A DNA stretch of 23,832 nucleotides from a virus: IMG/VR virus record IMGVR_UViG_3300017786_000146, positions 1 through 23,832 of that record, one strand, 5' to 3'. Every line of letters starts with the position of its first letter. Positions within the stretch are counted from its first letter, which is position 1. A program made the position numbers and the translations under genes. The notes under the pieces were generated by a model. The model worked only from the letters and a program-made list of their open reading frames with translations, did not search any database and was not told the DNA's origin. Positions 87 through 1,502 of this stretch are shown here, piece by piece.

Positions 87-144
87 TTATCCGCACATTG
101 CTGTCACAGGGTTTTCCACAGTTTTGTTGTGAGTTGTGGAAAAC
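87..144. promoter_or_regulatory. DnaA-box-like inverted pair (cyanobacterial form)
   Basis: GTTTTCCACA (111-120) and its exact reverse complement TGTGGAAAAC (135-144) face each other across 14 bases. TTTTCCACA is the DnaA-box form reported for cyanobacterial chromosomal origins. A weaker match, TTATCCGCA (87-95), lies just upstream with one change from the E. coli box. What is seen is the motif and its symmetry; binding of host DnaA is inferred. Together with the second pair at 376-396 it makes this non-coding stretch a candidate origin. Confidence 0.55.
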
Positions 145-267
145 TTTTAGAATCATTAAATAAATGGGGTTAAGGTGCTCTCAAGATGTAGTCTTAGCCC
201 GCAACCTACCGAATGTCAAGGAGAGATGTGCCAGTCCTCAAAGTGTCACACAAACCCTTGGAATCAC

Positions 268-296
268 TTGACATTTACTTGGAGCTCCCTTATAAT
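268..296 (+). promoter_or_regulatory. Perfect consensus sigma-70 promoter
   Basis: TTGACA (268-273) and TATAAT (291-296) match the bacterial vegetative consensus exactly, with the optimal 17-base spacing. Transcription should start near 302-304. This is the strongest promoter-like sequence in the window and is expected to be read by host RNA polymerase soon after infection. The predicted start falls on an ATG at 303 that opens only a 17-codon frame (303-356), so the transcript more likely serves as a leader for the gene at 501, a small RNA, or an origin primer. Confidence 0.75.
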
Positions 297-310
297 AACA
301 GCATGGATCT

Positions 311-365
311 CCAAAAGACTCGGAAACACTCGGTTGACTACTTCGTGACCTTCTGAGTCTTTTGG
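311..365 (+). ncRNA. Long stem-loop at the start of the 303 transcript (candidate small RNA or leader)
   Basis: CCAAAAGACTC (311-321) is perfectly complementary to GAGTCTTTTGG (355-365), an 11-bp stem closing a 33-base loop that can form a small inner GGTTG/TGACC hairpin. It begins about 8 bases after the predicted start of the consensus promoter. The bases after the stem are GATTCGCA, not a T-tract, so it is not a classical terminator. It could be a 5' stabilising hairpin, a small RNA, or an origin primer structure. No known RNA family was recognised. Confidence 0.4.
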
Positions 366-375
366 GATTCGCACC

Positions 376-396
376 TTTTCCACAACCTGTGGAAAA
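376..396. promoter_or_regulatory. Second DnaA-box-like inverted pair
   Basis: TTTTCCACA (376-384) and TGTGGAAAA (388-396) form a near-continuous palindrome separated by only three bases (ACC). Both halves match the cyanobacterial DnaA-box form exactly. The pair sits immediately upstream of the AT-rich repeat tract at 404-496, the usual order of initiator sites and unwinding region in bacterial origins. Function is inferred. Confidence 0.55.
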
Positions 397-403
397 CTCA
401 AAA

Positions 404-496
404 GATTAAAAAATGACTTTTTAAGATTCTTCTCTTTTTAAGAAAGTTAAAAAAGTGACTTTTTAACATTTTGAGGTTTTTAAGAAAATTAAACTT
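404..496. repeat. AT-rich tract with near-identical repeats
   Basis: TTAAAAAATGACTTTTTAA (406-424) recurs as TTAAAAAAGTGACTTTTTAA (447-466) with one inserted base, and related TTTTTAAGAAA strings lie at 435-445 and 477-486. Each repeat is itself nearly palindromic. The tract is very poor in G+C. It could be an origin unwinding element, an operator array for the gene at 501, or an upstream promoter enhancer. Confidence 0.5.
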
Positions 497-500
497 TAAC

Positions 501-737
501 ATGTTTGTGAAAACTTACGAAAATCTTGATAGTTCAGCTATTAATAGACTGAAAGTATCAAATAATAGTGTATTTGTAACATATAACAGTAATATTGACA
601 AAGAATATGAATTTAGCTGTGAAAACACAGTAGAATTCAATGATACAGTCAATAATACTGTTAACAATAAAGAATCTCTTGGTAAACTACTTAATAGTAG
701 TATAAGAGAAGGCAAACTCGTTGATATCACTAAATAA
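501..737 (+). CDS. Small hypothetical protein, possibly KTSC-like
   Basis: This 78-codon frame starts at ATG 501. A TTG 30 bases upstream (471) would extend it, but that would run into the AT-rich repeats. No good ribosome binding site precedes either start. The layout, an early DSSAI-type segment, a central YEFSCENTVEFND stretch and a C-terminal LLNSSIREGKLVD, weakly recalls KTSC-domain proteins (short beta-rich proteins with an 'A-S-x-G' type C-terminal motif), but the match is too loose for a firm assignment. It is Asn- and Ser-rich and is the first gene downstream of the consensus promoter at 268. Function unknown. Confidence 0.7.
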   Translation: MFVKTYENLDSSAINRLKVSNNSVFVTYNSNIDKEYEFSCENTVEFNDTVNNTVNNKESLGKLLNSSIREGKLVDITK

Positions 738-1046: not shown

Positions 1047-1502
1047 ATGCCAAACTGGTGTCACAACCGTGTTTCATTCTATTCAGACAATGTTGATGAA
1101 ATCTCATCAATAGCTAAGATCTTTAAGAGTGATGAAGTATTCAACACTATTCTACCATCACCAGACTGGAAGACGACACCCAACGACAAAGGCGAACTGC
1201 CTATCTTGAGAGAGATGAAATCTCCTAAGACTGGCGAAGTTTTCCACAGGACGTACGATTTTCCAGATGGCACAAATGATGACAGATGGTATTCCTGGAA
1301 TAATAACAACTGGGGTACTAAGTGGGAACTGGGTGAGGTAGACTGTGAGCATGACGAAGAAACACTTGAATGTGTATTTGAAACTGCATGGTCACCACCA
1401 GAGGGAATTTATCAAGCACTGCGTGAGCAGTTCCCTGATGTTAGTATATCATGGTTCTGGGATGAACCAGGTATGCAGCAGGCAGGATACCTCAACAACT
1501 AG
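1047..1502 (+). CDS. Api92/YubB-like protein (DUF1281 family)
   Basis: The start at ATG 1047 is set by AGGAG at 1037-1041; the in-frame extension back to 963 would encode an unrelated sequence. The 151-residue product begins MPNWCHNRV, the hallmark N-terminus of the Api92/YubB (DUF1281) family of phage and plasmid proteins with a ferredoxin-like C-terminal domain. Other family hallmarks visible are WNNNNWGTKW (residues 84-93), FETAWSPP (111-118) and EPGMQQAG (140-147). The biochemical role of the family is not established. Its length is near complete for a single-domain member. This is one of few genes in the array with a clear ribosome site. A DnaA-box-like string (1240-1248) inside it is probably coincidence. 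Confidence 0.9.
   Translation: MPNWCHNRVSFYSDNVDEISSIAKIFKSDEVFNTILPSPDWKTTPNDKGELPILREMKSPKTGEVFHRTYDFPDGTNDDRWYSWNNNNWGTKWELGEVDCEHDEETLECVFETAWSPPEGIYQALREQFPDVSISWFWDEPGMQQAGYLNN

Follow-up and report, generated by a model that had tools for sequence, protein, structure and literature searches.

On where and how T4-like cyanophages start to replicate their DNA, the searchable open literature appears to offer little more than a prediction: a 2010 review cites one predicted theta origin, that of Syn9. Could a non-coding locus carrying DnaA boxes of the host type be such a start site? The locus considered here lies in a fragment of a T4-like cyanophage (cyanomyovirus) record, 23,832 bases long, and the whole of this stretch is referred to as the window. 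Its large ORFs encode baseplate proteins, and DNA like it is present in Synechococcus myoviruses, e.g. S-WAM2 and S-CAM4. An earlier note on this DNA had proposed a replication origin at the locus, which we retain as a plausible inference and the best single reading, although the GC skew gives it no support. Our search of the open literature found no phage study of DnaA boxes in cyanophages; the texts containing both terms were, by title, on cyanobacterial genomics.

Results

The window contains four exact copies of TTTTCCACA, the published cyanobacterial DnaA box (PMC4674748; PMC3480399), arranged in two inverted pairs, just as the earlier note had described them. Box 1 (112–120, plus strand) is the left arm of the upstream pair and stands in a 23-bp register with box 2 (135–143, minus strand), and box 3 (376–384, plus strand) is separated by 3 bp from box 4 (388–396, minus strand). 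Their setting is indeed non-coding, with no convincing gene before the ATG at 501. A fifth exact copy was found at 1240–1248 (plus strand), inside the ORF at 963–1502. Dinucleotide shuffles put the expected number of copies in the whole window at 0.31, with a maximum of 2.

The two pairs flank a conserved block and a promoter. The block (about 172–251, plus strand; GGTGCTCT...CTTAGCCCGCAACCTACCGAATGTCAAGG...TGTGCCA-N10-TGTCACA) has its core, CTTAGC, at 193, and the pattern common to relatives is CTTAGC..GC.......C....GTCAA; it is probably bound by some phage or host protein. Between the first box pair and the block lies a short AT-rich element, CTTTTAGAATCATTAAATAAATGGGGTT (144–171), whose counterpart in relatives is AAATGGTTAAAAAAATATAGG, whether these have boxes or not, and AT content is maximal between −80 and −60 relative to the block core. 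The promoter (268–296, plus strand) is, by motif match, a perfect one of the sigma-70 type, as had been noted, with TTGACA at 268–273, a 17-nt spacer and TATAAT at 291–296; in relatives, TATAAT is enriched within 100 bp downstream of the core. The boxes had been placed downstream of this promoter. The AT-rich tract and boxes 3 and 4 do lie downstream, but boxes 1 and 2 precede the promoter, which stands between the two pairs.

Transcription from this promoter would produce a predicted structured leader RNA (300–400, plus strand) made up of a hairpin at 311–365, near-perfect in the predicted RNA, and the inverted repeat of boxes 3 and 4; the predicted folding of 300–500 has a z of −7.0. Beside the second pair we confirmed the AT-rich repeat tract (about 401–500), a candidate DNA-unwinding element composed of two 42-nt direct repeats (401–442 and 443–484) that are 79% alike. 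Directly downstream is a 78-aa ORF (501–737, plus strand) belonging to phrog_4357 (T4-GC_805). Searches gave no Rfam match in positions 1–2000 of the window, no tRNA in the window and no Pfam match for three small ORFs. An intrinsic-terminator-like hairpin with a T-run was seen at 940–959, 3' of the second small ORF.

Regions matching the locus were detected by distant blastn in S-PM2, S-WAM2, S-B43, S-RSM4, ACG-2014e/h, S-RIM12, MED4-213 and P-HM1. In 10 of 10 complete cyanophages the block occupies a single syntenic place (at most 2 mismatches, the flanks being judged without formal alignment), and the other matches to its pattern in those 10 genomes, with 1–2 mismatches and located elsewhere, look like chance. 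Searching IMG/VR for the block pattern, with no reference to boxes, returned at least 119 loci. The IMG/VR matches listed, the loci from phage records and the window together gave 131 loci with the core, which fell into 65 dereplicated groups at 85% identity, between which common ancestry remains; the frequencies given below for these loci are those of a sample, among the matches listed. In S-PM2 (AJ630128, 19177–19333), tRNA-Asn and tRNA-Leu are annotated over the boxes and the block. These annotations may be spurious, because ARAGORN finds no tRNA at the S-PM2 locus.

The locus is maintained even though the downstream gene switches family, between phrog_4357 and phrog_718. The type represented by Syn33, S-RIM12, ACG-2014g and Syn9 has a different downstream gene family (phrog_718 in S-RIM12 and ACG-2014g) and, by eye, no AT-rich tract, but the box pair, block and promoter are kept; in Syn9 the block locus has the box pair, the block and a near-perfect promoter. 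Taken together, these data identify in marine cyanomyoviruses a control locus that is conserved, lies in non-coding DNA and occurs once per genome. It consists of separable modules, namely DnaA boxes, a short AT-rich element, the block and a sigma-70 promoter, with the AT-rich repeat tract added in many lineages, and the order of the modules is conserved across loci.

Among the matches listed, TTTTCCACA occurs within 200 bp upstream of the block core in 36 of the 65 dereplicated loci. These 200-bp intervals hold 78 boxes, against 0.44 expected (maximum 4 in shuffles), and TTTTCCACA is their commonest 9-mer. Box density among the same matches amounts to 6.1/kb over the 200 bp preceding the core, 1–2/kb at +100 to +350 and roughly 0–0.1/kb in nearly all bins beyond +350, with a minor rise to 0.36–0.49/kb at +750 to +1150. 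Some phages have more box pairs about 0.8–2.4 kb downstream of the block (locus L012, about +815 to +870; locus L081, about +822 to +2423).

The earlier note had called for a scan of the rest of the genome for boxes, which we carried out on 22 complete relatives instead of the 23,832-base fragment. The cluster withstood this comparison: all nine clusters (at least 2 boxes within 50 bp, read from the listed box positions) sit at the block locus and none elsewhere, in S-PM2, S-RIM12, Syn9, Syn1, Syn33, S-CAM1, ACG-2014g, Sf-CH11 and S-RIM44. T4 has no box cluster; its two copies of TTTTCCACA and five of TTATNCACA are scattered and not above the reversed control.

The remaining 29 of the 65 loci (among the matches listed) have the block without an exact box, and box-free loci often have TTGAGAATCAATAA-like repeats at the box position. 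In two loci (L045 and L086), GAAATAGTG-type repeats replace the boxes upstream of the block. Tandem TTTTCCACA pairs, often TGTGGAAAAACCTGTGGAAAACT, were also seen in a series of IMG/VR contigs (L293–L407), many of them without the block and some with 60% GC. A looser regex placed the block on the expected side of 18 such tandem-box viral contigs (n = 115) and on the control side of 2; the strict block regex was too narrow for these contigs (1 of 115).

The close neighbouring box pairs (n = 49, among the matches listed) comprise 23 head-to-tail on the minus strand, 24 inverted, 1 plus-plus and 1 divergent, and 19 of the 23 minus head-to-tail pairs are exactly 12 bp apart. When the window was compared with three near relatives (four sequences only), 35 of 36 box columns were invariant, the single lost one being an alignment gap, as against 196 of 414 columns outside the boxes. 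In the same four sequences, the spacer of the first pair is invariant in 4 of 14 columns, whereas that of the second pair, 3 bp long, is invariant like the boxes. Because the boxes are invariant while spacers diverge, and half of the close pairs are head-to-tail, the boxes look like DNA-binding sites rather than RNA hairpins.

The AT-rich tract is a different matter. Among the matches listed, a tract follows the promoter in 17 of 34 box-bearing and 15 of 27 box-free loci (Fisher p = 0.80), and by this comparison it is an independent module. The earlier note held that the region combines two origin layouts at once, and this is literally true in the window, but boxes and tract occur independently across relatives and hence do not form one fused design. 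In thermodynamic terms the tract ranks among the least stable 0.06% of 100-bp windows in S-PM2 and the least stable 0.004% in S-WAM2, and by the same measure the locus is less extreme in S-RIM12 (1%) and P-HM1 (5%).

On the host side, of 145 genomes belonging to one cyanobacterial class, 119 have a same-direction TTTTCCACA pair with at most 30 bp between the boxes, and the reversed-pattern control was almost nil. We examined the DNA upstream of dnaN, ten regions in all, in small genomes with CsoS2, which we take to be a marker of alpha-cyanobacteria, the group name being assigned to the sampled hosts by reading. Exact boxes upstream of dnaN number three in one genome (G043) and one in each of three others (G128, G141 and G028); six genomes (G069, G102, G080, G112, G057 and G092) have one-mismatch boxes only. 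DnaA-trios were present in 10 of 10 regions, nine as CTACTA and one as CTACGACTA. A script run on five regions identified CTACTA in four of them and CTACGACTA in the remaining one, and CTACTA is visible in the sequence of G080, G028, G112, G057 and G092. These host stretches match the DnaA-trio element of bacterial origins (PMC8287927).

At the phage locus DnaA-trios were not found: a trio-like stretch lies within 32 bp of just 2 of 104 phage boxes. The phage thus has host-type boxes without the host unwinding element, and a captured host oriC was rejected for lack of trios. The assignment of the boxes to the cyanobacterial DnaA form is nevertheless strongly supported by identity with the published motif, by clustering at a single locus across cyanomyoviruses and by invariance relative to the spacers, and binding of host DnaA to these putative sites is likely.

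The earlier note had also suggested looking for a change of skew at the locus. Cumulative GC and AT skew in four genomes showed no GC-skew inflection there, a weak test, since the genes run mostly in one direction and skew follows gene direction.

Discussion

The fixed-locus box cluster suggests that the T4-like marine cyanobacterial viruses carrying it attract the host replication initiator, and most likely this recruitment helps to start or control phage DNA replication. In the leading, unproven reading, the locus most likely serves as the main replication origin or as an early one, and we lean slightly towards an origin at which host DnaA is an accessory factor. A single syntenic copy per genome, kept with changing neighbours, would fit an origin, as would DnaA boxes beside AT-rich DNA and, in many lineages, a promoter with an unwinding-prone tract behind it. 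Against it stand the missing skew inflection, the absence of exact boxes from 29 of 65 loci (among the matches listed), the lack of DnaA-trios and a tract that is not universal. The single theta origin predicted for Syn9 (PMC2984593) also counts in favour of an origin, by its existence and not by its position.

In such an origin, host DnaA would bind the boxes cooperatively early in infection. The adjacent AT-rich DNA would then open, or transcription from the promoter would hold it open, as in T4 origins built of a promoter plus an unwinding element. The T4-type replisome of the phage itself, which all cyanomyoviruses are reported to have (PMC2984593), would enter at the opened locus, and recombination-dependent replication would later take over. 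The part played by DnaA would be accessory, because nearly half of the loci (among the matches listed) have the block and no exact box. A wider proposal, that cyanomyoviruses start at one dedicated origin recruiting DnaA without DnaA-trios, and that lineages swap the box module for another repeat so that initiator dependence is exchangeable, is put forward tentatively and held to be somewhat doubtful.

A rather unlikely, though still appreciable, alternative is that host DnaA regulates transcription here, coupling the 268–296 promoter and its operon to the state of the host, in which case the locus would be an early-gene control region and not an origin, and the second box pair a roadblock in the leader. 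The perfect promoter within the locus, the promoter-like TATAAT after the core in many loci, a TGTG-N16-CACA dyad immediately upstream of the −35 hexamer and the strongly structured leader all agree with this. However, the upstream boxes lie about 160–190 bp before the expected start site, which is far for direct control, and the block stays at a single place per genome with different downstream gene families.

It is improbable that the boxes serve to titrate DnaA, like E. coli datA, with consensus sites on many phage copies soaking up the host protein and halting host initiation. Phage boxes are exact consensus and the boxes of several host origins are one mismatch off, as titration would have it, but a sponge could lie anywhere, yet the clusters sit only beside the conserved block, and each genome has no more than about 2–5 boxes at the locus. 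We give equally little weight to another host or phage protein whose motif coincidentally equals the cyanobacterial DnaA box. The other repeats at the same place in box-free loci (TTGAGAATCAATAA types) and the tandem TTTTCCACA pairs in unrelated viral contigs speak for such a protein, and the exact nine-base identity with the published host box speaks against it.

It is very improbable that the inverted boxes act in the leader as RNA hairpins or terminators. The 376–396 pair does lie inside the predicted transcript and folds well, but no T-run follows it and no terminator was called there, the first pair precedes the promoter, and the 23 of 49 close pairs (among the matches listed) that run head-to-tail in one direction could form no hairpin; we reject this reading. 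Chance clustering is refuted by 78 boxes against 0.44 expected (among the matches listed) and by nine of nine clusters at one locus, and its probability is negligible.

Returning to a putative origin with accessory DnaA, the locus resembles several known systems in part. It shares with the dnaN-adjacent cyanobacterial oriC the same 9-bp box, clustered, intergenic and near AT-rich DNA, but all ten alpha-cyanobacterial regions upstream of dnaN have CTACTA-type trios, whereas the phage locus has none and is not beside dnaN, and tandem boxes are spaced 12 bp apart in the phage and often 11 or 21 in host pairs. T4 origins consist of a promoter and a DNA-unwinding element and are R-loop primed. In the window and in many relatives, though not all, a promoter likewise precedes an AT-rich tract that is easily unwound; T4, however, lacks a DnaA-box cluster, the promoter at the phage locus resembles the sigma-70 type, and phages of the Syn33-type lineage have no such tract. 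P1 oriR, pSC101 and R6K carry DnaA boxes beside sites for the replicon's own initiator, and the phage locus similarly has host DnaA boxes by a conserved replicon-specific block and AT-rich DNA. Unlike them, it has no iterons, no phage initiator was identified, and the phage has a T4-type replisome. E. coli datA has clustered consensus DnaA boxes outside oriC, as does the phage, in which the cluster belongs to a conserved promoter-containing locus of a lytic virus.

The box cluster is not peculiar to the contig of the window but is common among cyanomyoviruses. Its conservation makes it a direct target for footprinting and deletion, and the box-block signature can be used to find the locus in metagenomic phages. 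If the proposed role of DnaA is true, a lytic T4-like phage would be linked to the initiation system of its host.
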